A DNA stretch of 64,000 nucleotides from Brachycybe producta (lineage: Eukaryota > Arthropoda > Diplopoda > Playtdesmida > Andrognathidae), in assembly GCA_036925085.1 (NCBI GenBank), contig JAUPFP010000015.1, forward strand, positions 1,201,001 through 1,265,000. The letters are read 5' to 3'. Under the pieces are notes generated by a model, which had not been told where the DNA came from, did no database searches, and worked only from the letters and a program-made list of their open reading frames with translations. A program made the translations under genes and the position numbers. Position 1 is the stretch's first letter; the number at the start of each line of letters is the position of its first letter. Of the stretch, positions 34,801 through 62,753 are shown in pieces.

Positions 34801-37800
34801 ACCAACGAGACCCCCTCCACCGCCTCCAACTAGGCCACCTCCACCACCACCAACATTACCACCATTACCCCCACCAACTAGACCACCACCACCCCCACCA
34901 ACTAGACCACCACCACCCCCACCAACTAGGCCCCCGCCACCCCCACCGACTAGACCCCCGCCACCTCCTCCAACTAGACCACCACCACCAACTAGACCTC
35001 CACCCCCACCCCCAACAAGACCTCCACCACCGCCACCAACTAGGCCCCCTCCACCGCCACCAACATACCCACCACCCCCTCCGCCCACGCGTCCACCAGT
35101 ACCTCCTCCAACAAGACCACCATACCCTCCACCCACACGACCACCGCCACCACCGACAGTTCCCGAAATAACTCCATGTACTTGCCCTCCCCCACCCCCA
35201 TTTACTACAACCACAACAACACCAAGACCATGCCCTTGCCCTACTTACCCACCTCCAACAAGACCCCCACCACCTCCACCAACGAGACCCCCTCCACCGC
35301 CTCCAACTATGCCACCTCCACCACCACCAACATTACCGCCATTACCTCCACCAACTAGACCACCACCACCCCCACCAACTAGGCCCCCACCACCTCCTCC
35401 AACTAGACCCCCACCGCCACCTCCAACCTGGCCTCCTCCACCACCACCACCAACTAGACCTCCACCCCCACCCCCAACAAGACCTCCACCACCACCACCA
35501 ACTAGGCCCCCTCCACCGCCACCAACATTCCCACCACCCCCTCCGCCCACGCGTCCACCAGTACCTCCTCCAACAAGACCACCATACCCTCCACCCACAC
35601 GACCACCGCCACCACCGACAGTTCCCGAAATAACTCCATGCACTTGCCCTCCCCCACCCCCATTCACTACAACCACAACAACACCAAGACCATGCCCTTG
35701 CCCTACTTACCCACCTCCAACAAGACCCCCACCACCTCCACCAACGAGACCCCCTCCACCGCCTCCAACTAGGCCACCTCCACCACCACCAACATTACCG
35801 CCATTACCCCCACCGACTAGGCCCCCACCACCCCCACCAACTAGGCCCCCACCACCACCTCCAACTAGACCCCCACCACCTCCTCCAACTAGACCCCCAC
35901 CCCCACCTCCAACATGGCCTCCTCCACCACCACCACCAACTAGACCTCCACCCCCACCCCCAACAAGACCTCCGCCACCACCACCAACTAGGCCCCCTCC
36001 ACCGCCACCAACATTCCCACCACCCCCTCCGCCCACGCGTCCGCCAGTACCTCCTCCAACAAGACCACCATACCCTCCACCCACACGACCACCACCACCA
36101 CCGACAGTTCCCGAAATAACTCCATGCACTTGCCCTCCCCCACCCCCATTCACTACAACCACAACAACACCAAGACCATGCCCTTGCCCTACTTACCCAC
36201 CTCCAACAAGACCCCCACCACCTCCACCAACGAGACCCCCTCCACCGCCTCCAACTAGGCCACCTCCACCACCACCAACATTACCGCCATTACCTCCACC
36301 AACTAGACCACCACCACCCCCACCGACTAGGCCCCCACCACCTCCTCCAACTAGACCCCCACCGCCACCTCCAACATGGCCTCCTCCACCACCACCACCA
36401 ACTAGACCTCCACCCCCACCCCCAACAAGACCTCCACCACCACCACCAACATACCCACCACCCCCTCCGCCCACGCGTCCACCAGTACCTCCTCCAACAA
36501 GACCGCCATACCCTCCACCCACACGACCACCGCCACCACCGACAGTTCCCGAAATAACTCCATGCACTTGCCCTCCACCACCCCCATTCACTACAACCAC
36601 AACAACACCAAGACCATGCCCTTGCCCTACTTACCCACCTCCAACAAGACCCCCACCACCTCCACCAACGAGACCCCCTCCACCGCCTCCAACTAGGCCA
36701 CCTCCACCACCTCCAACTAGACCCCCACCGCCACCTCCAACATGGCCTCCTCCACCACCACCACCAACTAGACCTCCACCCCCACCCCCAACAAGACCTC
36801 CACCACCACCACCAACTAGGCCCCCTCCACCGCCACCAACATTCCCACCACCCCCTCCGCCCACGCGTCCACCAGTACCTCCTCCAACAAGACCACCATA
36901 CCCTCCACCCACACGACCACCGCCACCACCGACAGTTCCCGAAATAACTCCATGCACTTGCCCTCCCCCACCCCCATTCACTACAACCACAACAACACCA
37001 AGACCATGCCCTTGTCCTACTTACCCACCTCCAACAAGACCCCCACCACCTCCACCAACAAGACCCCCTCCACCGCCTCCAACTAGGCCACCTCCACCAC
37101 CACCAACATTACCGCCATTACCCCCACCACCCCCACCAACTAGGCCCCCGCCACCCCCACCAACTAGGCCCCCACCACCACCTCCAACTAGACCCCCACC
37201 GCCTCCTCCAACTAGACCCCCACCGCCACCTCCAACATGGCCTCCTCCACCACCACCACCAACTAGACCTCCACCCCCACCCCCAACAAGACCTCCACCA
37301 CCACCACCAACTAGGCCCCCTCCACCGCCACCAACATTCCCACCACCCCCTCCGCCCACACGTCCACCAGTACCTCCTCCAACAAGACCACCATACCCTC
37401 CACCCACACGACCACCGCCACCACCGACAGTTCCCGAAATAACTCCATGCACTTGCCCTCCACCACCCCCCTTCACTACAACCACAACAACACCAAGACC
37501 ATGTCCTTGTCCTACTTACCCACCTCCAACATGGCCCCCGCCACCTCCACCAACGAGACCCCCTCCACCGCCTCCAACTAGGCCACCTCCACCACCACCA
37601 ACATTACCGCCATTACCCCCACCAACTAGGCCCCCACCACCACCTCCAACTAGACCCCCACCGCCACCTCCAACATGGCCTCCTCCACCACCACCAACTA
37701 GACCTCCACCCCCACCCCCAACAAGACCTCCACCACCACCACCAACTAGGCCCCCTCCACCGCCACCAACATTCCCACCACCCCCTCCGCCCACGCGTCC

Positions 37801-40800
37801 ACCAGTACCTCCTCCAACAAGACCACCATACCCTCCACCCACACGACCACCGCCACCACCGACAGTTCCCGAAATAACTCCATGCACTTGCCCTCCCCCA
37901 CCCCCCATTCACTACAACCACAACAACACCAAGACCATGCCCTTGTCCTACTTACCCACCTCCAACAAGACCCCCACCACCTCCACCAACGAGACCCCCT
38001 CCACCGCCTCCAACTAGGCCACCTCCACCACCACCAACATTACCGCCATTACCCCCCACCAACTAGACCACCACCACCCCCACCAACTAGGCCCCCGCCA
38101 CCCCCACCAACTAGGCCCCCACCACCACCTCCAACTAGACCCCCACCACCTCCTCCAACTAGACCCCCACCGCCACCTCCAACATGGCCTCCTCCACCAC
38201 CACCACCAACTAGACCTCCACCCCCACCCCCAACAAGACCTCCACCACCACCACCAACTAGGCCCCCTCCACCGCCACCAACATTCCCACCACCCCCTCC
38301 GCCCACGCGTCCACCAGTACCTCCTCCAACAAGACCACCATACCCTCCACCCACACGACCACCGCCACCACCGACAGTTCCCGAAATAACTCCATGCACT
38401 TGCCCTCCCCCACCCCCATTCACTACAACCACAACAACACCAAGACCATGCCCTTGCCCTACTTACCCACCTCCAACAAGACCCCCACCACCTCCACCAA
38501 CGAGACCCCCCTCCACCGCCTCCAACTAGGCCACCTCCACCACCTCCAACTAGACCCCCACCGCCACCTCCAACATGGCCTCCTCCACCACCACCACCAA
38601 CTAGACCTCCACCCCCACCCCCAACAAGACCTCCACCACCACCACCAACTAGGCCCCCTCCACCGCCACCAACATACCCACCACCCCCTCCGCCCACGCG
38701 TCCACCAGTACCTCCTCCAACAAGACCACCATACCCTCCACCCACACGACCACCGCCACCACCGACAGTTCCCGAAATAACTCCATGCACTTGCCCTCCC
38801 CCACCCCCATTCACTACAACCACAACAACACCAAGACCATGCCCTTGTCCTACTTACCCACCTCCAACATGGCCCCCACCACCTCCAACTAGGCCCACCT
38901 CCACCACCACCAACATTACCACCATTACCCCCACCAACTAGACCACCACCACCCCCCACCAACTAGGCCCCCGCCACCCCCACCAACTAGGCCCCCACCA
39001 CCACCTCCAACTAGACCCCCACCACCTCCTCCAACTAGACCCCCACCGCCACCTCCAACATGGCCTCCTCCACCACCACCACCAACTAGACCTCCACTGC
39101 CACCCCCTACTAGGCCTCCTCCACCTCCACCTACACTTCCACCGTGGTCACCTCCAACTAGGCCACCAACTCAACCTTACACCCCCCACACAACACACAC
39201 TCCACTATGTCCATGCATTACAACTCCATATCCATTAACACCAAGACCACCACCGCCCCCACCCCCCACCAACAAGACCACCACCTCCACCTCCAACTAG
39301 ACCCCCACCACCGCCACCAACAAGACCACCTACTAGACCCCCACCACCACCTCCAACAAGGCCTCCTACTCCACCACCAACCAGACCCCCACCACCACCT
39401 CCAACAAGGCCCCCTACTCCACCACCAACAAGACCACCACCACCACCTCCAACAAGGCCTCCTACTCCACCACCAACCAGACCCCCACCACCACCTCCAA
39501 CAAGGCCCCCTACTCCACCCCCAACTAGACCACCACCACCACCACCACCGCCAACAAGGCCTCCTACTCCACCACCAACCAGACCCCCACCACCGCCACC
39601 AACAAGGCCCCCTACTCCACCCCCAACTAGACCACCACCACCACCGCCAACAAGGCCTCCTACTCCACCACCAACCAGACCCCCACCACCGCCTCCAACA
39701 AGGCCCCCTACTCCACCACCAACTAGACCCCCACCACCACCTCCAACAAGGCCCCCTACTCCACCCCCAACTATACCACTTATAACACCATGTTCATGTC
39801 CCCCTCCACCACCATTCACTACTACAACTACACAACCATGTCCTTGTCTTACATATACGCCACCACCACCCCCAACAAGACCTCCTCCACCCCCACCAAC
39901 TAGACCACCACCGCCGCCGCCGACAAGGCCCCCAACTCCACCACCGACTAGACCTCCTCCGCCACCTCCAACAAGGCCACCACCACCACCGCCAACAAGG
40001 CCTCCTACTCCACCACCAACTAGACCTCCACCACCACCACCGACAAGGCCCCCAACTCCACCACCGACAAGGCCCCCAACTCCACCACCGACTAGACCTC
40101 CACCACCACCGCCAACAAGGCCCCCAACTCCACCACCGACTAGACCTCCACCACCACCGCCGACAAGGCCCCCAACTCCACCACCTACTAGACCTCCACC
40201 ACCACCGCCGACAAGGCCCCCAACTCCACCACCTACTAGACCTCCACCACCACCGCCGACAAGGCCCCCAACTCCACCACCTACTAGACCTCCACCACCA
40301 CCGCCAACAAGGCCCCCAACTCCACCACCGACTAGACCTCCACCACCACCGCCGACAAGGCCCCCAACTCCACCACCTACTAGACCTCCACCACCACCGC
40401 CAACAAGGCCGCCAACTCCACCACCTACAAGACCGCCTCCACCACCGCCAACAAGGCCCCCAACTCCACCACCGACAAGACCTCCTCCACCACCTCCAAC
40501 AAGACCCCCACCCCCACCACCGACTAGACCCCCGACAAGACCACCACCACCACCAGTGACATCTCTATGTCCATGCCTAATTACAACAACTACAACAACA
40601 ACCGTAGCTCCGCCTTTGATTTGTCCATGTGTAACAGCAACTGCTCAACCATATCAACCAACTGAAACAATATACCCTCAACCACCGTACAGAACACCAT
40701 CGCCTCCAACAATCAGAACACCATCTCGGTACCATGTTCTTCCCGATGTGGATACAACGCCCACTACACCGAGAATACCGGTACAACAAACAGTGGATGA

Positions 40801-45819: not shown

Positions 45820-47165
45820 CTAACTCCTTTTAGTACCTGTACCATTTTTACTGGGCATCCTGGCTCCTCCGACTGCCGACCTCTTTGATGGAATAACGAA
45901 AAGACCAATGTCAAGATGTCGACAAATTTGGTTGCAGACAGTCGTGGAATATCGTAGAAGATCAAACATTACCCAGACCTAAATTTTTTTTTTTTTTTTT
46001 TAAATGTAACTTCTGCATTATATGAGCTAGGGTCACAACATTACTAAACAAATTGTTACAATGTATAAGTGAATGCAGCAATAATAAATTACTATTGTTG
46101 TGCATAGTTTGTTACGTGGAAGTTTCTTGAAAAAAGCAAAGCAAATAGAATTTTAACAAATCGTGAATACTGGTAACGTTTTTTGGCTTATTGAGAATAG
46201 TGGAACCAGTTCGGCACAACTGAAGCCTTTTTCAAGGCTTTGGCCATTTCTTGGACAAAAGCAAAGTGAAGACTTGATGTTCTTTCATTTCATCAAATTT
46301 TAGAAATTGTAGTTTTTTACTGTTTTATCCCAAGATTCCATAGAGTAACAGATTGGCTCATAACCAAGTTATTTTACTCCCTAATTGCTAGAAATAGGCA
46401 TACAAGGGGACGTAGGCAATAGGGCCGGTGATATGTACCTACGTCACCAAGCATCCTTATTCAATAGCAACGGCTTTGGGGGGGGGAGAGAATTCCTTGG
46501 TTACTGGCCAACCTGTTAATGCACGGAGCTTGGTTTTATCCACACCGAGTAGTGTATCCATTTTTTTCAAGGTTGTGCAGCATTTTACTACAATTTATTG
46601 AGTGTTGTGACCGCGGCTCAAAATATAGTAATCACAAGAAAATACGATATCTTATTCAAGAAACTCACAAAACATATCCAAAGTAAGATGTATTCGTTAA
46701 ACGTTGTGTTAAAATACTGATTTAGAAACAGTATTCCAGGTCCAACGAGAACTGAATCCAAGTAATCCATTTCACTCTTTGTCATATGTGCAACCTGAGG
46801 CAATTTTAAGAAGAAAAAAAATACCTGTACATAAGAGTAAACTTTCAACTTCCATATGACATATTCCCCTTCTCTTAATAAAGTTTACTAATATAATATC
46901 GCTTAAATTGATAGTTTAGCACTAAAGTAATCGTTAAACATATAGCTAGAAAAAAAAAATACGTACCACTAAACGGTTCGTAACCTTCGCAGCAACAAGA
47001 CCAAAAGCCAAGATGTATAAACAGGGATGATCTTCATATAAATGTGTTATTGATTTTTGATAAATAATGAAAGCTGGAACAACAACGAGGCTAAAAGGAA
47101 TACAAGGTGACAGCACGCTAGTGCCCTACAAAAGATAAAACTCAAGTGTTACCAAAACCGTAACT

Positions 47166-47197
<32 letters not shown>

Positions 47198-49916
47198 TGT
47201 AATGCCATATTTATAGTAGTTTTTAAGATTAGGTCTTCTCGAAGTAAGTTGTGCGTATGTGCGTAATGCATAACTATGCATTTATGTGACAATACATCAC
47301 AGCGTCATCAGTGACAAACACTTCATGGTATTTATAGCTGCTTTTCACATCCTGATTATCAAACCTGCCTCCATGTTGATTGGCAATTCAACATTTTGGG
47401 TTGAAATACACAGACCACTTTTTTGTAAAACGAAGTCGAAGGTGGTTGGGCTGTGGTTGCAATGTCATTTCGGCGACAACCCGACTTCATTTTACAGCCG
47501 ACTCGTCAAAAAGTGGCTCGTGTACCAAAGGCCTTTGTGAACATAACAGCATGATATCGAACAGGTGACATAACACTACTATAAAATGAGATTTCATTAA
47601 ACCGATTATGACATTTCATTATGTCAACCATCTAAATCGGATCTGATGATAAACTATAAATATAGCATACAAGTTTATTAATTGCAAGAAGAAGAAAATA
47701 CTATATTTGGTGACTATTGGAACACAGTATAATTAAATAAAAATGTAAAGAAAAAACAATAGGCAGACACGACATACTCAAACACAGACACACTTGTGAG
47801 TTAGTAAAGATTCTCATTCATAATTTACGGACACACAATACTATCTAAAGAGATTTAAGAAGAAGAAGAAGAAGCACGATTAGGAAAGACAACTTACGGC
47901 GACAGTGGAACCGTTCTTGCCCACACCGCCCGTAAAAATAACAGTAGCGTTAGAATAGCAGAGAAAAGTGGCCGAGAGAATCGCTAGGCCGACAGGTATC
48001 GATTTCATATCCACGTGCAAGATGGGAATCTGAACGATGAACGATAGAAAAAAAAGGCAGGCACATAAAGTCACACGAAAGACAAAGCTAATAGGGAATT
48101 AAGCTAACGAGACACAAATCAAACATAAAAGAAAAACATTTTATTAATCGAAGAATCAGGCAGAGATAAGAAGATTTAAGCAACAGCGCAAGTCGGCTCG
48201 CATTTAAACTGCAGCGAATCAACATCGGTACAGGAACAGCCGTAGAAATTAAAACAGGGACACCAGAGTCAAAACGATAATACTCTTCCAATAGCCAACT
48301 CTAGTTTTTTTTTTCTTTTTTGGCAGAATGAAACTTACGGCGACTGTGGACCCGTTTTTACCGACACCTCCTGTGAATATAACACGAAAGTTGAACATAA
48401 AAGAAAACGCTTGACCCGCAAGAACAATGGCAGAAGGAAAATATTTTACGGCCAAATTAATGTAAGGTATCTGTCGAATAAGAGAACGATTTTACGATTA
48501 TCAATTCATAAAAAAAACAGAACAATTCGTAGGTGAATAACAAAAGATCGCTCGTTATGACACTAGTCCACGAAAATATGGATCGATTTTCAAAAAAAAA
48601 AAACATTCATGAATATTGTAAACTCTCCGTTTTTTTAAAAAAATATTTGTATGTGCGTACAATTATACGAATATCAGATAATTGTCAGTCATAAAGTGGC
48701 AACCGCAAATCGCAAGTAGAGAGGTTTCACAGTATTGAATACGGACACCTCGGATAATAAATTTTACTATCCGCGGATAACGAATCTTCTTTTCCTGAAC
48801 CACGGCCCGCACTCATAGAACGGGGTCGGTAGAATGATGATGAATAACGAAAGATGCTACATACGAGTCGCATTTGGCGAAATGTGGTCTACGACCGGCT
48901 GCCCAGCACCACAAGAGGAAGCTATCTCCACTGTGCTACTATAACATCGACATCCGCAAATAACGAATATCTGATTTTATTTTTCGGTCGGATAATGGAT
49001 GTCCGTTCGGATAATAAACTTAAAAATAAATTTGTGGCATATATTTCGCATATTGACGTGACGTTTCTTTATCAATTTAACACATTTAACAAAATGTGAG
49101 CGTGTTACACGTGTTGATTCGCAGCCTGAACGTTCGCAAATCACTTAGTGAACTATTTTGTTGTATTTATTACAATTTAACCAAACAAGTATTAAAGTTT
49201 ACAAGCTGAAGCAGTGATCCTTTTGAGTTTTTCTTAGAAAAACTGATTTAAATCCAAAGACTCTTCAACTCACTGGTGTTCAATGTTTTTGTGTAAACGC
49301 AAGATGTTTTTCTACTACGATATTTTACTACAACAGGGGTTAAAGTTCAACTATCAGTGACGAGTTTTGTTTATTACCTTTGTTTCCCACATGTCAGCAC
49401 CAAACAATCCAGTCAATATAAACACAACCATTACTCCAAACTGAGCTTCTGTCACATCAAATCTAAAAATAAATCAAATTAATAAAAATCTAGAAATTGT
49501 AAAAAAAAAACTACGAAAAATCTTTAGAACAACTGAAAAAAAAAAATGAAGACACTCACCTGCCAAACCTTAACGTTCCAGAAACGTAAGTCTGCCAATG
49601 GGCGCTGTAAAACAATGATATAGCTGTAAAACATTGAAGAAATAACCAGCCTGGATTAGAACCCAATTTCACAGCAATGCAGGCTGCCAATGATACAAAA
49701 GCTAAAAACAAAAACAACAAAATAAATAAATTACGTCTTCAAAGTGAACCAACAACAACAACACTCACCTGTTGAAATGGAATCACAACCATGATCAAAT
49801 AACTCTCCTAAAGGAGAACTCGTGTTCGTCCTCCTTGCTTGTTTTCCATCTACCGCATCCAACGATTGGTAGACGAACAGACCAAGAGCACACAAAAAAT
49901 AAGCCCACCTTGGAAC
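45820..49916 (-). CDS. CEPT1: Choline/ethanolamine phosphotransferase, CDP-alcohol type (5' exons not found)
   Basis: Catalyses transfer of phosphocholine or phosphoethanolamine from the CDP-alcohol to diacylglycerol, the last Kennedy-pathway step, in ER or Golgi membranes. Exons in order: 49916-49769, 49701-49560, 49462-49378, then 48470-48339 or 48029-47898 (alternatives), 47125-46967, 46794-46669 and 45978-45820, all with GT-AG borders and matching phase. The first carries the catalytic CDP-alcohol motif: DGKQAR, then G eight residues later and GELFDHGCD. Later blocks [55 protein letters not shown] and FLNQYFN match the CEPT1/CHPT1 family rather than SELENOI. About 300 C-terminal residues are covered. 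The N-terminal exon(s), normally about 130 residues including the APN motif region, were not recognised and may lie beyond a large intron or outside the window. The terminus [12 protein letters not shown] is short and basic. Confidence 0.93.
47168..47196. repeat. AAT microsatellite
   Basis: About nine aat units in the intron upstream of the 47125-46967 exon of the phosphotransferase gene. Confidence 0.85.
47380..47545. repeat. Dispersed repeat family III, best copy, palindromic
   Basis: The left half has agaccacttttttgtaaaac then gaagtcgaaggtgg. The right half in reverse complement gives gagccactttttgacgag then tgtaaaatgaagtcgggt. So the copy is itself an imperfect inverted repeat. It sits in a phosphotransferase intron. 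Confidence 0.6.
47898..48029 (-). other. Alternative exon B of the phosphotransferase (132 nt)
   Basis: Encodes 44 residues beginning [18 protein letters not shown] and ending [15 protein letters not shown], with acceptor GTTCAG and donor GCC|GTAAGT. It is the same length and phase (0-0) as exon A at 48339-48470 and ends in the same 13 residues, but differs through the first two thirds, a membrane segment. Confidence 0.85.
48339..48470 (-). other. Alternative exon A of the phosphotransferase (132 nt)
   Basis: Encodes 44 residues beginning [19 protein letters not shown] and ending [13 protein letters not shown], with acceptor CGACAG and donor GCC|GTAAGT. The pairing with exon B at 47898-48029, 309 bases away, suggests mutually exclusive use. 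Confidence 0.85.
48700..49060. repeat. Intronic repeat with cggataat motifs
   Basis: The motifs cggataataaa, atccgcggataacgaat, atccgcaaataacgaat and gtcggataatgg recur at both sides of a GC-richer core (about 48880-48950). It looks like a short inserted element in the phosphotransferase intron; the exact ends are not resolved. Confidence 0.4.
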
Positions 49917-50395
49917 CTATGAGTAACAAAAAAAAAAGTTGCAAATCAACGTTGCAAATCTTGCTTTAAAAATATGAGTTTTGGATATTATCGAGAAAAA
50001 AATCCGATCACTTCTTAAAAGAATCATCTTTTTCTTAAAAATGCAAAAAAACTTGCAGCTAAATTTCTAGAGTTCTGTTTCCATGAGATTCTCCTATTTT
50101 GACTTAATGGATACAGGGCTTAAAAGAGCAAAACAGAAAATGCGTTTCAAACTCGAAAAAGCACAAATAATCGTCAAAAGCAAAATTAAATTATTTCAGC
50201 TTTTTAACCAGTTAAAATATTGTTTTAAACCACTGAGGATGAACTTGGTCTACATTTTTCGTTTCTTTTAGGTTTTAGTGAGTTTTTTTTTTTTTCTAGC
50301 TATTTATTTCTCCAATTATTCGTCATTTCAGGTAATATAATACATTTTAATTAGACATATACATTATCCAAATATTAGAATTACATTAAATGTTT

Positions 50396-50566
50396 CCCAC
50401 ACTAGAGCGGCCCGAATCAGCTGAGCCGGATGCATGCCCGTTCGCTGTCATCACACCGAGCCGATTCCGTCCGGGCCTAGTGTGGGTTTATTCTATTCGG
50501 TTCTGTGGTTTTTATTCCATCCAGAATTTTCCTTTCCGATTCGAGCCTCGAGTGTCTAGTGTGGGG
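50396..50566. mobile_element. Inverted-repeat element with cccacactaga ends
   Basis: Left end cccacactagagcggcccga. Right end in reverse complement ccccacactagacactcgag, with gctcgaatcgg inside. GC-rich against its flanks. An internal cctagtgtggg is a further copy of the terminal motif. No clear target-site duplication. Confidence 0.5.
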
Positions 50567-50975
50567 TAGCAACCTTAACACCATTGTAAACTGCCCTTTT
50601 TAACCAGTTGAAATTTTCACAGTTTAATAACTTTCGCTCAGTGGAAACAAGGTCTTAGTGTCATTTTATGTTTCAGCCAATAGGGTTCAAACCAAATAAA
50701 AACTTTCCTTTTCCTCCCAAGTTAACACACGGAAATTCATTCCAGCTGTGCGGTTCAGGATCTTTTTAACGTTATATGTATGCGTTTCCCCTTTTTTTAA
50801 AAAAAAAACATAAAAGTTGTCTTTTTCTTATAAACACAGCCATAAGAAACAACAGCATTTTGTAATATCTCTCATAAGTTTCCACAGGGGCTTTTTATAA
50901 TACTTTAATTTCTTTTAAAAATTTAAAAATGATATATTAAAATCAGAAATTTGGCTCTGGAAAGGTGAGGAAAAT

Positions 50976-51194
50976 AAGACGGGCTAATCGTTGGTCACTA
51001 GGAGACCTACACTTTTAGATAACTATTTGGAGAAAAACTGTGAGTCACTCAGTGCCCTACACTTTTTCCAGTCTGGGGGTTGTGGCCCAGGACCCCCTGC
51101 AACAAACTTAATTTAACGTAACCCCACCTAATCACTGATATAAAAAAAAGTTCTAAAGTGTAGGTCACCTAGTGACCTACGATTAGTCTGTTCC
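50976..51194. mobile_element. Inverted-repeat element with 9-bp target duplication (219 bp)
   Basis: The left end contains gggctaatcgttggtcacta then ggagacctacacttttaga. The right end in reverse complement contains agactaatcgtaggtcacta then ggtgacctacactttaga. The arms therefore match over about 40 bases. Perfect 9-bp direct repeats gaggaaaat flank it at 50967-50975 and 51195-51203. A 9-bp duplication is the Mutator-like signature, but the family assignment is inference. Confidence 0.75.
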
Positions 51195-51519
51195 GAGGAA
51201 AATTGTCCCCTTGTTCTTATGTGGGGAGGTACCAATGCTAATGAACACATAAGTAAAGTTAATGTTATAATTTATTAATTCAGGCCGTAGGTAATGAATG
51301 AATTCATTTCTGTGGCCAATTGGGTAGCACACAAAATATAGTCATTATTACTTGAGCCCATTCTGACTTTCAAGTTCAACATATGTTCAAATACGTCACT
51401 GCGTTACCGGATTATCATAAAAATAATAATATTCAAGACAACGGTTGGGATGAATAGTTTGATTGACATTTTTGCTTCAGTTTCCTTGTACGAAATGTTT
51501 CCTTAACTACCACGGTTAT

Positions 51520-51527
51520 TATAAAAG
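51520..51527 (+). promoter_or_regulatory. TATA box of Pro/Gly gene A
   Basis: TATAAAAGGCT on the plus strand, the same core as at the two minus-strand paralogs. A noncoding first exon should start near 51550 and end at 51581 before the donor gtaagtat. The intron then runs to a TTTGTTACAG acceptor at 52120, 18 bases before the ATG. Confidence 0.8.
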
Positions 51528-52138
51528 GCTAATAAACTGCGTGCGTGGTAAAATATACCTGGTTTCATACACCCTGAAGTTGTAAGTATATTAGCTTAAG
51601 AGTTATTCTTACAATTACTAACATATTGAAGTTGGTTTTAGTAAAATTAATATTAATAATAAATCCATCGTGTAGACTACACACAAATAAAACGACTAAA
51701 CATGTTAATAATATACTGTATATTGCCATCTACCCGCGAGGCTGTCTTTCGTGCACGCTGCTAGGATTTCTAATTTTTAGCCTCTAGTTTAGTTTGCCCT
51801 TCATTAACTAGCATTAATTTATTATTTCTGCAATAAAATTTTGTTGGCATATGCTCCTTATTGTCCGTAAATGCCATTTTGCAATTATAACTAGCAAACT
51901 CGATGTTGAAAATCCTAATTAGTGAACAGTGAGCAGTCAAAGCGACCGCACAAAAATTGAGTGTCAAAGATATGCTCCGTATTTTAAATAACCAAAAGAG
52001 TAATCTTGACTTGTAATAAAAAGAAATGAACAATTAGTAAAGTTATTTAAATATTTTTTTCAAGAAATCTTTATTAGGCTAAATAAAATATAACGATAAT
52101 GGTGTTTCAATTTGTTACAGTTTGGTTAAATTCTAAAT

Positions 52139-52739
52139 ATGGAGAGGAAAATCACATTTATTATCACTTCCTTGGGAATTTGTGCATTGGTACTTTGTGA
52201 AAGCTCAATTGACGAACAAAATGAAAGACTCCCGCAACGCCCAAGGAAAGGTAGATTTCGCCATCCTCCTGGACCACCTCCATTTGGACCGCCACCATTT
52301 GGACCACCTCCATTTGGTTTTCCGCCTGGCCCACCTCCATTTGGCTTTCCACCTGGCCCACCTCCATTTGGCTTTCCTCGTGGCCCACCTCCATTTGGCT
52401 ATCCACCTGGCCCACCTCCTTCACATATATCAGGAAGCTCAGGAGGAGGAGGAGGAGGCAGAAGAAGAAAACAACCTGGATTTCAAAGTGGAAGTCCACA
52501 TTCACAGCATCGACCAGAATGGCCACATACTCATAACTCTGAAGATGAAGACGATGAAGATGAAGAAGAAGACGAAGAAGCTAAAGATGAAGCAATTGCA
52601 CAACTATTGGAAACTGCGTTGCAAGGTTTACACGGAATGATAGGTAATGACGAATTGTTAACATATTATTGAAAATAAAACATAAAACAGTTTTATAATT
52701 AATTCTTATTCCTATTCTTTTACAGGAAATCTACCATGA
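52139..52739 (+). CDS. Secreted Pro/Gly-rich protein A
   Basis: Coding exons 52139-52643 and 52726-52739, 172 residues. Signal peptide MERKITFIITSLGICALVLC, then a short charged segment, about six GPPPFGFPP-type repeats (residues about 43-95), a glycine run with RRRK, a His/Pro stretch, an acidic block EDEDDEDEEEDEE and a C-terminal amphipathic segment EAIAQLLETALQGLHGMIG. The last exon adds only NLP and the stop. The signal peptide, C-terminal segment, donor GTAATG and tiny last exon match the genes at 58.2-59.1 and 61.6-62.1 kb, defining a family. I know of no named family; composition suggests a structural or silk- or matrix-like secreted product. A noncoding first exon lies upstream. Confidence 0.88.
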
Positions 52740-54246
52740 TTGGCTAACTGTGAGTTTAAAAGTTCTGTATCTAATGCATTTCAAATAAGGTTCTTATCTC
52801 ATCTGAAGACCTCGATTTCGTTTAAATTAAATTTGGATACTCGACCCCTCCAATGAACAGTGAAAATATATTTAAAATTCTTACAAAGATTAATTTCATT
52901 CAGAGCATATCAATATTTTCGCTTTAACTACAGTCACTGTTACCGATCGATCGTTACAGTCAGAACTGCATCCAGAGGACACCCGACAATAGCTTCTCAT
53001 ACCCATTGTCATAAACTAGTTAAGTTTGTTCATGCAAATCATTGATTTTTTTTTCATTCACAATATTTCATTATTGCATATTAAACTGAATCGTTAAATG
53101 AAATTTATTTTCTCATAAATTTGTTTTAATTCTTTCATGTGTATTTTGCTTTTTAAAACGAAGCAACCTATGTGCAACTTTCACACTTGCAAAAAAAAAT
53201 TAACTTGTAGTTGATTTCTATGATTGACTGTATAGTGCATGATAACATCACCTGAAAATCACGTCAAATCATGGATTGTTTCATAATTATTATTACCCAT
53301 ACTATGCGTACAACATAATGCATAGTATCAATTACCACTTTGACCATTTGTAAAGATGGAACTACATGTAGATGCTTTTGCTAAAGTTTGTGAAAGATTG
53401 AAAGCAAGCTAGCATGTTTGGCATATGTCATATACATATGCATTCAACATGTAAACGTCATGCTTTTATTGTATTTTATTGGCAACTGGTATTTCTGTTC
53501 AGCTTTTGTTTTATTTCGTAATATCAGCCACATTTTGCTCGATTTTCAGTGTTTTTCACTACCCTTTATTTATTCCTGCTATATGTGTTTTAAGAGCCTA
53601 GACCAGTCATTGCCAAAATTTATTTGCTTATGGCACAGTATTTTCTGCATGGAGAAATCGCGGCACACCTAGCAGTATTCATGGCACACTAATCAGTAGT
53701 GTTTCACAGTACACCATTTGGTAACCAAGAATTTATTTCGTACGTGAAATAGGGCCATTTTTACTTATATAATGTTTTTAGAATAAAGTTATAATTTATA
53801 TAAAATATTCATTCAACATAACATCCAAAATTTCGCAACACATCTCTTTGGAAAACACTTGCCACGACACTTCAGCTTGTACGTGCTGCATGATGTCATA
53901 TGTTAAGTGAAATTCGATTTGTCTGTAAACATGGCTTCAATTCTAGCTACCTTAACTGCCTTTAAACAGTATTTTGAACGATAATTTTTGATCACTTCTT
54001 GAATGTTGTGGTCAGGTATTAAAGTTGTTTGGTTACAATATTCAAAGGTTTTTTTTTATTTTACACCCTTTTGAATTACACAAATTTGCAAGACATATGT
54101 TAAAAAGCACTGACTTTAAATAAGGTCCATTTTGCTGACCATTTTTTCAGTTCTTTAGAAAACAGTAAATTTCAATGTACAATTTCATTTTTGCCGACAC
54201 TGTTAAGTTTATAAATAAATGAACAAAACAGGTTAGTTACATAATA
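52740..54246. other. Downstream flank with dispersed repeats
   Basis: No gene supported. A hAT-like end (ccagtcattgccaaa, then cgcggcacacctag) lies near 53600-53670. The segment at about 53880-54050 resembles 63040-63190 upstream of gene C, sharing aacatgg, tctagct, gaacaataatt- and atcacttctt-type blocks in order. Confidence 0.5.
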
Positions 54247-54252
54247 TTTATT
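54247..54252 (-). terminator. Polyadenylation signal AATAAA of the Gln/Arg-rich gene
   Basis: AATAAA on the minus strand, about 100 bases past the stop codon at 54353. Confidence 0.6.
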
Positions 54253-54352
54253 CTATAGAGAGTATATTTGTGTTTTGTGCACATTTTTTTCAATTACCAT
54301 GTAATAATGCAACGTAAATGTCAATGTTGTTATATATACAATGTTGGTGTTG

Positions 54353-54892
54353 TCAGTCAAAACGAAAATTATCGTAGTCATTTCTGTATTGTTGAGGACG
54401 AAACCAGTTAGGTTGTCGTTGTGCGTACTGTTGAGAACGCGATCTGTCAGGTTGTTGTTGTCGTTGTTCGTTCTGTTGAGAACGTGACCTGGCAGGTGGT
54501 TGTCGTCTGTTCTGTTCAGAACGTGCTCTGCCAGGTTGTTGCTTTTGTTCTTGTTGTTGTCCAACTTGTCCATAATCGTCGTAATCATCTTCCGCAGGAT
54601 TTGTGTTTTTGTTTGTTTGATTTTTTGGATTCTGGCGCTTCTTTTTTTTCTGATTTGAGCGTTGTTGGTTACGCGCTCGTTTTTGATTACCATTCTGTAT
54701 TGGATATTGCTGGAATCCTGGCTGTTGGTACACTTGCTGAAATGGCATGCCAACCCCGTAACCATTCCAAATTGGCGGAGGAAATCCCAAAAATGGGAAT
54801 ATTCTCTCACTGCCTTCGTTTTCAACTGTTTTCAGTCCCGATACATCGATTACCACCAGTAAGGAAATAAACAACAAAAGCTTAATTGCCAT
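54353..54892 (-). CDS. Secreted Gln/Arg-rich low-complexity protein
   Basis: Single coding exon, 179 residues. Signal peptide MAIKLLLFISLLVVIDVSG. A Pro/Gly/Phe segment with FPFLGFPPPIWNG and QQPGFQQYP follows, then a strongly basic stretch (NQKKKKRQNPKN) and an acidic DDYDDYG. Next come imperfect repeats of the RSRSQQN..RQQP type (about residues 120-165) and the end QYRNDYDNFRFD. A CAG acceptor 10 bases before the ATG suggests a noncoding first exon, as in the neighbouring Pro/Gly genes, but the signal peptide is unrelated to theirs. No known family recognised. Likely an extracellular matrix or secretion component by composition (inference). Confidence 0.75.
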   Translation of the reverse strand: MAIKLLLFISLLVVIDVSGLKTVENEGSERIFPFLGFPPPIWNGYGVGMPFQQVYQQPGFQQYPIQNGNQKRARNQQRSNQKKKKRQNPKNQTNKNTNPAEDDYDDYGQVGQQQEQKQQPGRARSEQNRRQPPARSRSQQNEQRQQQPDRSRSQQYAQRQPNWFRPQQYRNDYDNFRFD

Positions 54893-54989
54893 TGGTGGAA
54901 ATCTGTGAATTTAGGTTTTTTTAAAATAAATATATAAATTAGTAAAATGCAATAGAATCCCGGTTACTTTGTCTTTTAGACGCAACTTT

Positions 54990-55285
54990 AAGAAACAGTA
55001 TGGTGTTTTCGAAACTAGAAAAGTAAATTAATCAATTAAGAGTATTTTCATGTTGTAGGTTCTTTATGGTAATTTCAAAATTATTGATTTGTCTATTCAC
55101 TTCAAGTTTAACGAAAAATCTAAAACAAAATCATCTTGTAAGATCTAAAAATATAAAATTCAATCAATTTCATAAAGGATATTTAAATTTTGAAAAACAT
55201 CTACATGAAATGTTTATTCAATTTCATTATAAATTTAGTCTTGAAGTTTCAAGAATATTTTCAGGTGTTTCTTAAAGACATAGTT
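54990..55285. repeat. Foldback family I, diverged copy
   Basis: Left arm gtgttttcgaaactagaaaa then agagtattttcatgttg. The right half is decayed but has ggatatttaaatttt and catctacatgaaa. It lies just upstream of the Gln/Arg-rich gene. Confidence 0.45.
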
Positions 55286-55506
55286 TTTTTTTAAGATAAC
55301 GAGAGTTCTAATTTAAATTAAGTTAAAAACGTTTTTTACAAGTAAAATTTCTAGACATATATTGTTCTTACTTTTGGTTCCCTCAGTTTTCCATAAAGAC
55401 AATAATTGACATATTTTTATCCTTTTTATAGGTTTAGTTTTAACTGTTTTTTTCATTAAATAACCTATAGATAAATGAATAAAATATCCTCTACATATGT
55501 AGGAAA

Positions 55507-55776
55507 TTAATTCAATTGGTTTGCTTTCGAAGTTATTACAGTTGTCGAATTATCATTGGGTGTTTCGTCATTGAAAATTGTAGAAGAAAAATAAAATTTT
55601 CCTGCAACATGTACTGCGACAGGAGCACATGGAATACATGTGATACTTTTATTAAGTATCACATCATTCAAGCTTGGGTATACAACGCGTTGTACACCAC
55701 GTGTAAAATCATAAACCAATACCAGGCAAGCACATGTACTGGCAAAGAAAACAAGGATGCACGTACCATGATGCAT
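55507..55776 (-). CDS. Possible small secreted or membrane protein
   Basis: ATG at 55776 gives 89 residues with a hydrophobic cysteine-containing leader (MHHGTCILVFFASTCACLV). A hydrophilic part with a CIPC motif follows and ends in Asn/Thr-rich sequence. The frame stays open for 31 codons upstream of this ATG. No promoter, acceptor or paralog was found, so it may be chance. Confidence 0.35.
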   Translation of the reverse strand: MHHGTCILVFFASTCACLVLVYDFTRGVQRVVYPSLNDVILNKSITCIPCAPVAVHVAGKFYFSSTIFNDETPNDNSTTVITSKANQLN

Positions 55777-55871
55777 GGTCAATTTTGTGGTTCCAAAGTG
55801 TGGAGATCCCAATTTTTTAAAAAACAAAAAACCGGGAAACTTATTAAAATTTGGAGAAGAGAAAGGGAGCA

Positions 55872-56045
55872 TTAGAAAAAATGGTGGTATAATCGTAGTA
55901 TACTCGGGTTTCTCGCCAATTTCAATAAACTATAGATCGCTGGAAAGAACTTGTCGAGCTGAGTGCGAATAACCGGTAAAACCGAGACTAATGAGAACAA
56001 TACTCCAATGGCTCTAGCAACCAAACTTCGAATTTGAAACATCAT
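55872..56045 (-). CDS. Possible 57-residue micro-ORF
   Basis: Starts with a double ATG (MMFQIRSLVARAIGVLFSL). It has a basic-hydrophobic N-terminus resembling a mitochondrial or membrane-targeting sequence and ends LYHHFF. No recognised family. Listed because it is clean and sits in an otherwise unexplained stretch with balanced base composition. Confidence 0.22.
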   Translation of the reverse strand: MMFQIRSLVARAIGVLFSLVSVLPVIRTQLDKFFPAIYSLLKLARNPSILRLYHHFF

Positions 56046-56752
56046 GAAAACAATTTAATACATGACATACACCCATTTTTTTCTTAAAGCTGAAAGATGT
56101 TTCCGAATAAGCGCAATTCAAAAAGGTATCAAATAAAAACCTCTTTGAATATTCCAATCAAACGACTACCATGGCCACAACAGTTATTGAAAGTTCACTC
56201 ATTGCTCAAAACTCTGTTTTAAGAGAGAAAAGTGGTAAGCTAGAATTGACATCAGGTTTTTGAGCACATTAAATTTCACTTAACATTACTTCTATAGAGG
56301 CATTGCAGCACGTGCGTGCCAAAGTGTCTCTAGGCTGGTTCTTAATGACACGGTCAATCACATTCCTAAGCACTTTCAAGCGTCACGTCGACGTTTAATG
56401 CTCTAGCCAACTACACCCTGCATACGGTTACAGAAAAGAGTGACGTGACAGCGCCATTCTAAACTCATTCATTCAAGGCTTTTTAATGTCATTTTAAAAT
56501 CACTAGTCGGGTCTAGCAAATAAGTTGCGAGCAACAGATTTGACCAGTAATGTAAATCCCGAATTACATGCGAAGAAGGAAAAATCAATATAAATATCGA
56601 TTTCCAAAAAAAAATTACAATAACATGAATGTGAATTTGAAAAATTAATCCCCGAGCAGCGAAAGAGGTCTCTTGCAGAGGTGCAAAGACAAAGTTTTTT
56701 TTTTATCAAAAATGATCTAACCTCTAAAGATAATAATTAATTTGTAATATAT
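56046..56752. other. Spacer left of the hAT element
   Basis: No gene, RNA or repeat unit could be supported here. Confidence 0.5.
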
Positions 56753-56760
56753 GTAATGAG

Positions 56761-57734
56761 TAGGGTTGGCAAATATTTGTGATCACAACTATTTTATTTT
56801 TCAATTATTCAGCTTACTTTTAGCAGATCTTTACAAAACTATGCAAAGCTTAATAAACACTAATTGAAATCACACAAATCACACAATTCGGCAAAAATTT
56901 GGAGAAATCACACAAAGTGCAATAAATGCACAAAAATCACAATCCACAAACACAAACAGTCCACAAAAAGTTAAAAATAGATACAAAAAATTACAAAATT
57001 TAATTTTGAAAAAAGCTGTCCCACACCCACATCCTGCTTATAATGCATCATTGACTCTTGAAAAAAGAGGTCCAACCAATTACATCACCTCGCCCTTGAT
57101 TGAGAAATTCCTTAATGACTTGACAGAGAATACCAAAGCCATTGCTGCTGCTAAAGATGTTCTGCATAACCAAGAGATTCAGTGCAAACTTCTTCAGATC
57201 ACCACCTATAAGTTTTTGCCAGAAGCAATCACAAAATTGGAAACTGCTGGCCTTACAGTACAGAAGCAACTCACTATTCTCAATAGTGTTCAATCACATC
57301 TTAAAGATGAGCCACTTTCTAAGCTGCAGAAATCTCTGAAAAAGAATCCTGATTTGATAAAATTTACAGATTCTAAAAATGGCTTTAGTCATAAACAGAA
57401 AGTATTGTATGATCCACTTGTATCTGTAGATGTTGAGCGTTCATTTTCCATCTATAAGGCCATTCTGAGAGAGAATCGCACAAAGTTAACCACAGAAAAC
57501 CTTGAAATGTATAATGTTGTGCATTTCAATGCTTTTCTTAAATGAATAAGTATGATATTGTTAATTAAATATGCTAATGTAATTATATCATTCATGTGAT
57601 AGCCCGTTTATTTTTACTTAAAAAATAAATTCGTGAAAGAAAAAAATCACAATTTTTTCACACAAATGATCCCTTTTTTCACACAAATCACAACACAAAT
57701 GAAGGTCTAAAAATCACACAAATTGCCAACCCTA
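56761..57734 (+). mobile_element. Non-autonomous hAT transposon with perfect 8-bp TSD (974 bp)
   Basis: Terminal inverted repeats begin tagggttggcaa at both ends. Perfect 8-bp target duplications gtaatgag lie at 56753-56760 and 57735-57742, the hAT hallmark. Subterminal regions are dense in aaatcacacaaa motifs, as hAT ends often are. The inside keeps the C-terminal part of a transposase (57006-57543). Much of the autonomous element, including the N-terminal transposase and zinc finger, is missing, so this is an internally deleted copy. Confidence 0.93.
57006..57545 (+). pseudogene. hAT transposase C-terminal remnant
   Basis: About 179 codons open to a stop at 57543-57545. The end SVDVERSFSIYKAILREN followed by NLEMYNVVHFN matches the hAT dimerisation region. 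A full hAT transposase is typically more than 500 residues and the catalytic N-terminal half is absent. The apparent start is not an ATG, and the frame simply enters from the deletion junction. The intact frame suggests a young element. Confidence 0.88.
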
Positions 57735-57742
57735 GTAATGAG

Positions 57743-57940
57743 CAATATTAGAAAATAATCCTTTGTATTGTGTATATAAATCCTGAATTATCCCTAGGTT
57801 AGGACCAGTAAGTTGTCTGGTCAATTCCATTCAGAGGAATAATTATTTTTACACAGTATAAACCACGCAATCTTAACAACAGATTTAGTTTCCTTACAAA
57901 CCACAAACTGACACAGTATGATACAGTTTCAAATGCTTGC
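57743..57940. other. Spacer right of the hAT element
   Basis: Short AT-rich spacer before the polyadenylation signal of gene B. Nothing else seen. Confidence 0.5.
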
Positions 57941-57946
57941 TTTATT
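57941..57946 (-). terminator. Polyadenylation signal AATAAA of Pro/Gly gene B
   Basis: Minus-strand AATAAA 226 bases past the gene B stop. Spacing is compatible with a short 3' UTR. Confidence 0.5.
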
Positions 57947-58171
57947 TTTAAAGAGAAAAAAATACATGTAATAATTTTTAACAAATTTCAGAGGAAAAAA
58001 AACACAGTTTAATAATTTAGTGTAAGATCATCAAAACGTTGCTAATTAACAAAAAAATTAAACCGAAAAAGACTTGATTCAAAAAGATTTGCGAATAACA
58101 AAAAGAGCAGTTCAGGGAGAATGAATGCATTTGAAATGCATGAGACGGTTTCAACTACTAGTTAGCCTCAA

Positions 58172-59112
58172 TCACGGTTGATTTCCTGTAAAATAATAAA
58201 AATTAATTATAAAAGTGTTTTTTTACTACTAATAAGTAGTAATAATTCACCTTTAGCTGCCATTGCCTTGAAACCTTCCAGAGCAGCAGCAATTATTTGA
58301 GCAAATGCATCAGCTTCAGCTTGAGCGTTGTTAGCCTGTGGTGATACAGGCTGGATAGTTGGAAGTCCAGCTAAGGCAAAACGGATGTTATGCCTAAAAT
58401 TATTTGGCTTATATAATAATAATTAAACATTACCTGGCATTCCGCCTACACCTTGAAGAGCAGCCGCCAATAACTCAGCAAATGATTGAGCTTCAGCTGG
58501 AGAGATGGGTGTTTGCGTTCCTGATCCAAACGGGGAAGGTGAATTACTAAAAGGAGAGCTAGGTGATACTCCTCCGCTTCCAAAACCACTTCCTTGACCA
58601 AAGCCACTTCCTTGCCCAGAGCCACTTCCTTGCCCAGAGCCACTTCCTTGCCCAGAGCCACTTCCTTGCCCAGAGCCACTTCCTTGCCAAGAGCCACTTC
58701 CTTGCCCAGAGCCACTTCCTTGCCCAGAGCCACTTCCTTGCTCAGAGCCACATGTTTTCCTACAGCCACGTCTTTGACCAAATATGCAACATGGAGGAGG
58801 CATGCCGAATGGAGGAGGTAGGCCAAATGGAGGAGGTGGTAGGTCAAAAGGAGGAGGAGGAGGAGGAAAGCCGAATGGAGGTCGGCCGAATGGAGGTGGG
58901 CCAAATCCAGGCGGGCCAAATCCAGGTGGTGGACCAAATCCAGGTGGTGGACCAAATCCAGGTGGTGGACCAAATCCAGGCAGAGGAGGGACAAATCCAG
59001 GCGGAGGAGGACCAAATGTGAATCTTTCGTCCTGGTCTTCATTATGGCTTTCACACAGTGCCAATGCACAGATCCCCAAGAAAACGACACTAAAGGTGAT
59101 TTTGCTCTCCAT
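58172..59112 (-). CDS. Secreted Pro/Gly-rich protein B with SGQG repeats
   Basis: Exons 59112-58434, 58370-58251 and 58185-58172, 270 residues. Signal peptide MESKITFSVVFLGICALALC. Next are GFGPPPGFGPPP repeats and PPFGLPPPFGMPP, a short cysteine cluster (CCIFGQRRGCRKTCG), about eight GSGQGS hexapeptides, and the family C-terminal segment AEAQSFAELLAAALQGVGG. The middle exon (120 nt, symmetric phase) encodes a second version of that segment, AEADAFAQIIAAALEGFKAM. The last exon encodes NQP and the stop. Skipping the middle exon keeps the frame and gives 230 residues with the architecture of paralog A. A noncoding first exon and TATA box lie upstream. Confidence 0.88.
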
Positions 59113-59127
59113 ATCTAAATTCTGTTC

Positions 59128-59738
59128 TGAACAGTAACAAACGAAGACACCATTTCTTATAACATTTTAGATTAATAAAGATTTTTTTTCTCCAATTAAT
59201 TATTCTAATTGGTTATTTAAAGCGCGGAGAAATCACCAACTCGTTTGCCTCCTCCTTTTTTGTGCAACACATGCCACACATTATGCTAAGTTTGATAACC
59301 ATCCAGTAATCTTCACTTGATATTTTGGTATGTTTGATATGGCAATATAAATTAACATTTGCGGACGTTATACTCAGAAAAAATATTGCAAAAGAAATTC
59401 GTCTAACGCAACACAAACCAACTTTAACCATTGGTTATGAATGTCATAAATTTAATCTTAAAGTTATATTACCTCGTAAATAGGTACTTCTGTACTGATT
59501 TCACATAAATATGTATAAATGATGGGCTAATGTTGCTTGCACTCAAATGGAAAAAGTTAAACTATATTCCTTTTATCTGGCACTGATTAAAAATGTTGCC
59601 CCAAATATTGTTGGCAATCAGGCCGACAATAAAATTAACCGTTCCCACAAGCCAACAATTATTATCCCATTGTATCACAAACTACAGTTGGCAAGTGGCA
59701 ATACAAACTTAATGATAACTTCAATATGGAATACTTAC
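59128..59738 (-). other. 5' UTR intron of Pro/Gly gene B
   Basis: Runs from the donor gtaagtatt at 59738 to the acceptor just upstream of the ATG. The exact acceptor is either the CAG ending at 59127 or the one ending at 59122. No coding content recognised. Confidence 0.65.
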
Positions 59739-59800
59739 CAAGTTCAGAGAATGCAAACGTCGAAACAAGACGTCTCATATCATTTTGTCGAATTATCAGC

Positions 59801-59808
59801 CTTTTATA
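59801..59808 (-). promoter_or_regulatory. TATA box of Pro/Gly gene B
   Basis: Minus-strand TATAAAAGGCT, followed by a leader exon ending at 59739 before a GTAAGTATT donor. Same arrangement as at genes A and C. Confidence 0.8.
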
Positions 59809-61101
59809 AGAGATGTTGAAGGAAAAAAGTCTCGTACAAGGAAACGGATGCAAAATATTATTCAAGCTGTATCTTTACTGTACCAGAACATTAATCTTTT
59901 ATCGAAAATGTGGTAAACGTCGACAGCTGTACATTTTCTATAAGACAGTGACGCCCTAGAGTACGTACCAACTCAACTCAACCAATAGCCGTATTCCTAG
60001 TATTCACATAGAGACGGCACTCTCGAGTGCAACCGTTATTCATCGGGCACATCATGTGGTTAACGAATGGCACGTTCAAACAGCTTCCTTGTCTCCGCTT
60101 TTCAGAAGCAACTTTTACGTTTTCAGAAAAGAATAGAGTCAAAGAAAAATGGAAGGGATTTTCACGTTGTTATCTTTAAGACAATAGTATAACTCAATAG
60201 TATCTATCACTAACCGAATTATCATAATTTTAATAACATGAAAAACAATATGAGCAACAGTAAAGCACGTAATTATCACGGTAGGTTATTGTAAAAGTGC
60301 AAGTTTAATCACGTGATGAGAACGTTACCGCGACATGAGAGGCATTCGAGAATACCCAGCTTTTCTAGCAACCATAGAAGCATTGCAGTTACTTGTCAGT
60401 TTTTAATAATAATAAAAAAACTCTTACAAAATGAAAATTTAAGTAAGGTTACTCGCTCACGATGCTATAGCAACCCATAAAGTAGACAGAAACCATAGTA
60501 TGCAATTTCAATCACTCCTAGCAATCGTTTGTTAATCCAAGTAAACATTTTACGCATTTCAACAGGAGTGATTTCGAGTTGATTTCAAACAAACTGCACA
60601 ATTTCTAACAAACAGTAAACAACCTATTAAAGCAGTCGGTCATTCAGTAGGTTTTATACCGTATTTTCAAATAAACCCAATTTGAAACTCGATTCGATTC
60701 AGTTTAATCGATCAGTACACCTGCAATCAGCTCGAGAGACAAGTGTATTAATGCCAAAAACCTGCAAGGTTCTCGAGCATATTACTAGTATTCTAGTTAA
60801 ATAAAAATTTCTCATAAAGAACGTTTGTCTGAAAATATGTTAGCCAGTGATGCAGCTAGTTAATTCTCTTTAATTACATGTAGGAACTTTTATGAAACAG
60901 AATCGTAACCATATCTTAAAAGTTAATGAAAAGAACTCGAATATTACAATTTCACAATTGGTCACAGATTAATAATGGATCCTTTACTAAAAAAAACAGC
61001 TTAATTTGTAACGAGAAATGTTTATCCAATGCTAAAACTGGTGTGATTCCACAAAATCTATAAACAATTTTTATCAATTCTTTATTTTTTACATTTTAGA
61101 G
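59809..61101. other. Upstream flank of gene B
   Basis: About 59530-60080 is collinear with about 62600-63080 upstream of gene C, a duplicated promoter region. Beyond that I see no gene; the sequence is of mixed composition with no repeats resolved. Confidence 0.55.
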
Positions 61102-61320
61102 TTAAATGTCAACAAAGTGGTTTTTATTTCGTTTGCGTTCTGTCTTGATCAAAGTTAGTGGCAAATATATCTGTCTTATCAAACAACACAGACTTCGAAC
61201 AACCACAGCTTGGCATTCTGTTTTTGCAATACAACTTGGTAATTCTGGTTGTTTATTTTCACAACATTCTTCACAGTTAATACGTACGGTTAAGTTTAGT
61301 ATAAAAACAAGAGTGAGCAC
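61102..61320 (-). CDS. Possible last exon of a small cysteine-rich secreted protein
   Basis: Follows an acceptor TTTTCTCAAG at 61321 and encodes a hydrophobic leader-like LTLVFILNLTV. A cysteine-rich part follows: NCEECCENKQPELPSC, AKTEC and RSLCCL, eight cysteines in all. A basic tail RKRNK follows. No ATG starts this exon, so an upstream exon would have to supply the start, and none was recognised. Length and spacing resemble small secreted cysteine-knot or inhibitor-like peptides, but I cannot name a family. It lies downstream of gene C on the same strand. Confidence 0.35.
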   Translation of the reverse strand: MLTLVFILNLTVRINCEECCENKQPELPSCIAKTECQAVVVRSLCCLIRQIYLPLTLIKTERKRNKNHFVDI

Positions 61321-61439
61321 CTTGAGAAAATAGTTATTTTCACTTCACTTTACTTCACATCGTGTAGAAATTCACCACACATCAACTTCCTTTGCAAATA
61401 TCTAATTCTGCACAATTAAAGTTGTTTTAAAATGTAGCC

Positions 61440-61445
61440 TTTATT
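61440..61445 (-). terminator. Polyadenylation signal AATAAA of Pro/Gly gene C
   Basis: Minus-strand AATAAA about 170 bases beyond the predicted stop of gene C. Confidence 0.55.
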
Positions 61446-61611
61446 TTTTAAATGTGAAATACATGAAGTAATTTTGACAAACGTAATTTAATTTAAGAAA
61501 ACAAAAAATTGTGAATCAACAAGAAAAAAAGTGTTTGTAAACAAAAAGAAAAAAGTAGTCCAGAGGAGACTCGAGATTTGAAATCTGTCGACGACAATTC
61601 TGAACCGCTAG

Positions 61612-62067: not shown

Positions 62068-62080
62068 ATTTCAAAATTAT

Positions 62081-62700: not shown

Positions 62701-62745
62701 CAAATTCTGCAAGATGTGTTTTAACTTATAATTGAATTTACAAGC

Positions 62746-62753
62746 CTTTTATA
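62746..62753 (-). promoter_or_regulatory. TATA box of Pro/Gly gene C
   Basis: Minus-strand CTTATAAAAGGCT, identical in core to genes A and B. The leader exon ends at 62702 before the donor gtaagtattt. Confidence 0.8.

Follow-up and report, generated by a model that had tools for sequence, protein, structure and literature searches.

How should one read a phosphotransferase gene in which two neighbouring exons of equal length encode different versions of the same membrane segment? The question is raised by a 64,000-nucleotide (nt) stretch of the genome of the millipede Brachycybe producta (contig JAUPFP010000015.1, positions 1,201,001 to 1,265,000; hereafter the window), whose minus strand carries a gene of the choline/ethanolamine phosphotransferase (CEPT1/CHPT1) type with two tandem internal exons, here called A (48339-48470) and B (47898-48029). 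From sequence comparison, we consider it likely that A and B arose by tandem duplication and form a mutually exclusive pair; the resulting isoforms would then most likely be set apart by the entry of lipid, the fit of acyl chains or the rate of turnover. Coordinates throughout are window positions unless they carry a contig prefix (C15, C123, C1 or C17), and the genome as a whole comprises 295 Mb in 442 contigs.

Both exons lie exactly where an initial annotation of this DNA had placed them, each with 132 nt (44 codons) in phase 0-0, between the flanking exons that it had correctly named (49462-49378 and one starting at 47125) and with the good splice sites it had described—acceptors reading ...ttcgacag in A and ...tcgttcag in B, and a common donor, GCC/gtaagt. 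The C-terminal end said to be invariant is indeed identical in the two exons, at 15 residues two longer than had been quoted. Overall, A and B share 72 of 132 nucleotides and 21 of 44 amino acids (aa), a likeness divided very unevenly between the first 29 residues (6/29) and the last 15 (15/15), and they were the only repeated pair (E 8.4e-13) when the minus-strand open frames between 45800 and 50000 that were 22 aa or longer were compared with one another by blastp. Because the last 15 codons differ by nine synonymous and no non-synonymous changes (with 28% synonymous sites, the chance that nine random changes are all silent is p ~1e-5), we conclude that both copies are old and protein-constrained, the substitution pattern pointing to an old duplication with selection acting on each. 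Over the whole exon, the Nei-Gojobori proportions of synonymous (pS) and non-synonymous (pN) differences are 0.73 and 0.36. This bears directly on whether one copy might instead be a dying duplicate that is no longer spliced in: B is slightly further from CEPT1 than A (22 versus 26 of 44 residues identical), but each has an open frame and splice sites at matching borders, which an unused exon would not keep, and the 15 terminal residues have all survived near-saturated synonymous divergence, making such decay very improbable. Elsewhere in the genome, a search with a 66-aa exon B segment (E up to 10) found two places among the scored candidates, A and B themselves, though the search scores the best candidates only and further weak copies are possible; the 573-bp stretch from A to B has a single DNA match.

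The part of the protein encoded in the window, 316 aa, matches the solved CEPT1 structure 8gyw with E values of 4.3e-119 as isoform A and 1.8e-116 as isoform B, and also matches the CHPT1 structures 8ero and 9uet, the alignments to CEPT1 and CHPT1 spanning 292-298 residues. We take these chains to be human (8gyw), frog (8ero) and human (9uet), with residue letters that agree with the numbering in both structure papers. The Pfam family CDP-OH_P_transf scores above its cut-off, and the class II cytidine diphosphate (CDP)-alcohol phosphotransferase signature DxxDGxxAR...GxxxDxxxD is present, its second half reading GELFDHGCD. Conserved positions include the four metal aspartates (D111, D114, D132 and D136 in frog CHPT1 numbering, used here throughout this list), R119, the catalytic histidine/glutamate pair and the CDP-choline contacts (E129, H133, Y34, W50, N64, S124 and F186), with substitutions at E43, replaced conservatively by D, and at Q175, replaced by H. 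The likeness to human CEPT1 and vertebrate CHPT1 thus takes in the four aspartates, the arginine, the histidine/glutamate pair and the sixth transmembrane segment (TM6) with its GGVGKNGST(V/I)A loop. The gene is of the CEPT1/CHPT1 type, whose enzymes carry out the last step in the synthesis of common membrane lipids, and activity with CDP-choline or CDP-ethanolamine is predicted.

Seven constant coding exons were resolved in addition to the two alternatives. The window does not include exon 1, which was placed at C15:1286374-1286138 (coordinates worked out), about 35 kb before exon 2; on the minus strand it is followed by exon 2 (49769-49916, 148 nt), which carries the phosphotransferase signature, exon 3 (49560-49701, 142 nt) and exon 4 (49378-49462, 85 nt), which covers the TM5 region and ends ...MWETK in phase 0. 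After A, a separating intron of 309 nt (48030-48338) and B come exon 6 (46967-47125, 159 nt), which starts GTSVLSP and covers the TM7 region, exon 7 (46669-46794, 126 nt) and the last coding exon (45820-45978, 159 nt including the TAG stop). All introns of the gene are bounded by GT...AG, the frame is kept at every join, and the full-length product with one alternative exon has 395 aa.

Are A and B, then, mutually exclusive? They are adjacent internal exons alike in length, phase, splice sites and sequence, which places them with tandem homologous exons, a standard kind of exclusive exon (PMC3228551, PMC6071210, PMC3923563, PMC9741552, PMC5740500; statements from cited papers refer here to the portions of their text that were available). 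On the fly X chromosome, such features were shared by 90 of 16,180 non-mutually-exclusive exons, and the same feature-based method recovered 26 of 28 annotated exclusive exons (PMC3228551). Two results weigh against reading the millipede pair in this way: 39 of 65 internal exons among the fly predictions were unannotated, some of which the authors thought might be constitutive or differentially included (PMC3228551), and scans of the 395-aa protein against viral and prokaryotic contigs, one of each, gave 1 and 17 pattern matches, none of them a relative. The initial annotation had seen in the pair the layout typical of mutually exclusive exons; this layout is well supported by length, phase, donor, homology and constraint on both copies, whereas exclusivity itself is not proven by it. 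We infer that A and B probably replace each other in the mRNA, so that each mature transcript would take A or B and yield one of two 395-aa enzymes differing only in the TM5-6 loop and TM6.

The frame alone would not enforce such a choice. Both lengths are multiples of three, and transcripts with A, B, A+B or neither all translate in frame; the 309-nt intron also permits splicing from A to B. These properties would also suit a pair in which one exon is the default and the other an optional cassette, with both sometimes included. The 37 nt before the acceptor are richer in pyrimidine in B than in A (78% versus 54%), so B could serve as the default exon, with A being the one under regulation. 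Against such loose alternation, an A+B product would carry an extra membrane segment, together with another GGVGKNGST loop, between TM6 and TM7; TM7-10 should then be flipped and the C-terminal topology broken, while skipping both exons would remove TM6; either exon by itself, by contrast, aligns to CEPT1 (8gyw) without a gap. We therefore judge loose alternation unlikely and continue to favour mutual exclusion, which should require an active mechanism, because double inclusion would stay in frame yet add a membrane segment.

What would the swap change in the enzyme? The annotated "membrane segment" proved right and can be made precise as the TM5-6 loop, TM6 and the TM6-7 loop: in the alignments, the swapped exon starts directly after TM5, its first residue corresponding to human CEPT1 I239, and stops in the TM6-7 loop, covering frog CHPT1 residues 217-260. 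In frog CHPT1, a diacylglycerol entry slit has been proposed between TM5 and TM6, TM6 is loosely packed, and it helps to form the enclosure where the reaction occurs (PMC10182977). Four TM6 residues are named for human CEPT1—253, 254, 261 and 265, with C253 and T254 contacting the acyl chains (PMC10156783)—and all four map inside the swapped exon, where A has I, V, S and N and B has L, A, L and N. The two versions are thus clearly different at 254 (V/A) and at 261 (S/L), the latter being residue 227 of the encoded protein and a serine in human CEPT1; they differ as I versus L at 253, and agree on N at 265. The 14 metal, CDP-choline (cytidine and head-group) and catalytic-site residues that we mapped from frog CHPT1 (PMC10182977), on the other hand, all fall in constant exons. 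TM6 would form one side of the cleft thought to admit diacylglycerol and release the product, and the most likely effect of the swap would therefore be on how lipid enters, how acyl chains fit or how fast substrate is turned over, an effect that would show across tissues or conditions with the head-group chemistry unchanged. One count runs the other way: of the 13 residues recorded as touching the acyl tails in human CEPT1 (PMC10156783), the swapped exon supplies 2 and the constant exons 11.

The initial annotation had offered two functions for the swap, choline versus ethanolamine preference and lipid fit. The second fares better, given the four TM6 residues in the swapped exon. As to the first, an indirect effect is conceivable through the part TM6 plays in the reaction enclosure (PMC10182977), but the reported head-group contacts (frog W50, E43 and F186; human E65) map, like the catalytic and metal residues, to constant exons, and a change of head-group preference appears quite unlikely. 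Because the mapped head-group and catalytic residues are constant, we favour an adjustment of lipid entry, of acyl fit or of the enzyme's rate, as suggested by the position of the exon on published structures. The swap might also act on localisation or partner binding and leave substrate use alone, as A and B have different residues at 23 of their first 29 positions, the lumenal loop included. That reading strikes us as unlikely: the TM6 contacts on record in the available structure texts are with the lipid chamber, and five reported dimer-contact residues all map to constant exons and are all kept. If the exons are indeed used exclusively, the gene provides a natural experiment in which an otherwise identical enzyme comes with two natural sequences for the TM6 helix of CEPT1. 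A comparison of A with B would then test directly if acyl-chain selectivity or turnover is set by this helix, as the structure papers ask.

Several familiar ways of forcing a choice between neighbouring exons fit this gene poorly. For steric hindrance in its simple form the 309-nt separating intron is too long, though a far-upstream branch point might still allow it; incompatibility of U2 and U12 splice sites is contradicted by GT...AG boundaries throughout, none of the listed donors looking U12-type by the usual consensus; and frameshift with decay of double-inclusion mRNA does not apply to exons of 132 nt, with A+B and neither both translating through.

Competing base pairing within the introns is suggested as one candidate for the enforcing mechanism. 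Among the 21 pairs listed by an inverted-repeat search, 48211-48234 is complementary to both 49112-49125 and 47364-47384. Extended, these define a candidate central docking site between the exons (48200-48242, minus strand), complementary to sites in both flanking introns: a candidate selector upstream of A (49098-49133, minus strand), which would loop out A on pairing with the central site, and one downstream of B (47351-47392, minus strand), which would loop out B in the same manner. All three assignments are suggestive only. In 24-nt scanning the duplex energies were -24.3 and -23.1 kcal/mol; extending the sites brought them to -27.9 and -27.0. As a test statistic we took, at the best site, whichever of the two pairings was weaker, with dinucleotide shuffles and real stretches from the window as controls. 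The observed value was equalled by 2 of 231 shuffles and, in a second, coarser scan, by none of 163; with the common site placed elsewhere scores were lower, 8/163 shuffles being as good for the upstream intron and 7/163 for the downstream intron, versus 0/163 for the central position. Summing the energies of both pairings gave a value equalled by 1 of 231 shuffles. Several points count against this pairing. Real sequence from the window equalled the statistic in 4 of 231 stretches and the summed energy in 10 of 231; neither pairing is exceptional by itself, values as good being reached by 15/231 shuffles and 27/231 real stretches for the upstream pairing and by 14/231 and 36/231 for the downstream one; and the pairing had been spotted before its test was made. 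An Rfam scan of the window gave no match.

Joined to the lipid argument, the pairing would allow a bolder picture, in which the exon pair provides a single Kennedy-pathway enzyme with two diacylglycerol gates and a tissue resets the fatty-acid make-up of newly made phosphatidylcholine and phosphatidylethanolamine through splicing alone, the choice being made at the central intronic site by looping out A or B. We put this forward as a speculation and think it improbable as a whole. Just downstream of exon B, at 47760-47897, there is also a tract of repeated TTC and, after it, several TGTG/GTGT stretches, presumably of the kind bound by PTB- and CELF-type splicing regulators.

How does this arrangement compare with known cases? 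Tandem exclusive exons are a well-known arrangement, to which the millipede CEPT1/CHPT1 pair would add. To our knowledge, no tandem exon occurs at the corresponding place in vertebrate CEPT1 or CHPT1. A further comparison is with Drosophila bbc (CG6016), which we take to be the fly CEPT1/CHPT1 homologue. It is listed among genes with mutually exclusive exons defined from expressed sequence tags (ESTs), that is, cassette exons never found together in EST graphs, its exon position not being given in the available text (PMC3303723); the millipede pair is perhaps the same event. Beyond that one-line listing, we recognised no exclusive exons for this enzyme in the available main text of open-licence literature, among the matches listed, and neither CEPT1 nor CHPT1 turned up in a text search of the available main text of two surveys whose scope includes tandem or exclusive exons in humans (PMC5740500, PMC9741552). 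In clusters controlled by RNA pairing, such as 14-3-3 zeta, srp, MRP1 and Dscam1, intronic pairings choose the exon; the millipede gene would resemble these through its homologous tandem exons, equal in length, and its candidate competing pairings. Its candidate common site lies between the two exons, whereas that of 14-3-3 zeta, Mhc and MRP1 lies downstream of the cluster; Dscam exon 6 is contrasted with those downstream-site cases, and srp has two separate pairings (PMC6071210).

Two relatives of the enzyme were found in the same genome. A diverged copy lies about 95 kb from the focal gene on the plus strand (C15:1148998-1153000; a partial model, read by eye), with a degraded signature (DALDGKQCSKVQETHLEEIADHGSDS) in which the alanine, the arginine and the glycine of the motif are replaced, and with one recognisable TM6-like segment; it may be a pseudoenzyme or pseudogene. 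An ethanolamine-phosphotransferase-like (EPT1-like) gene on the plus strand of another contig (C123:217329-218700; likewise a partial model, labelled by eye) has an intact signature. Open-frame self-comparison of these two genes found no tandem duplication of the swapped exon; in the EPT1-like region it gave one weak pair, 22 aa long with E 0.001, which is not that exon.

The roughly 35-kb intron 1 (49917-64000 in the window, continuing to about 85137) holds several secreted-looking, proline/glycine-rich frames that begin alike: MERKITFIITSLGICALVLCES on the plus strand at 52139-52672, and MESKITFSVVFLGICALALCES and MESRMTFSVIFLGICALAFCKS on the minus strand at 59112-58426 and 62067-61723. They resemble a small family of neighbouring genes distributed over both strands; a Pfam scan of two of them gave no family above cut-off. 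Elsewhere in the window, a 6.3-kb tandem array (34220-40530) is built from a 24-nt unit, CCACCAACTAGACCTCCACCACCA, which reads PPTRPPPP, in higher-order units of about 390-460 nt, with a GC content of up to 62% and strong strand skew. In the mitochondrial contig (C442, 15,359 bases), TGA is read as tryptophan, cox2 comes immediately after cox1, and nad4, nad4L and nad5 share the strand of cox1 (all genes named by eye), features that suggest an arthropod whose mitochondrial genome has been rearranged. Matches like its cox1 also occur in nuclear-sized contigs, at C1:12697416-12698753, with one extra TAA, and at C17:4027703-4029047, and are possible mitochondrial insertions or assembly joins.
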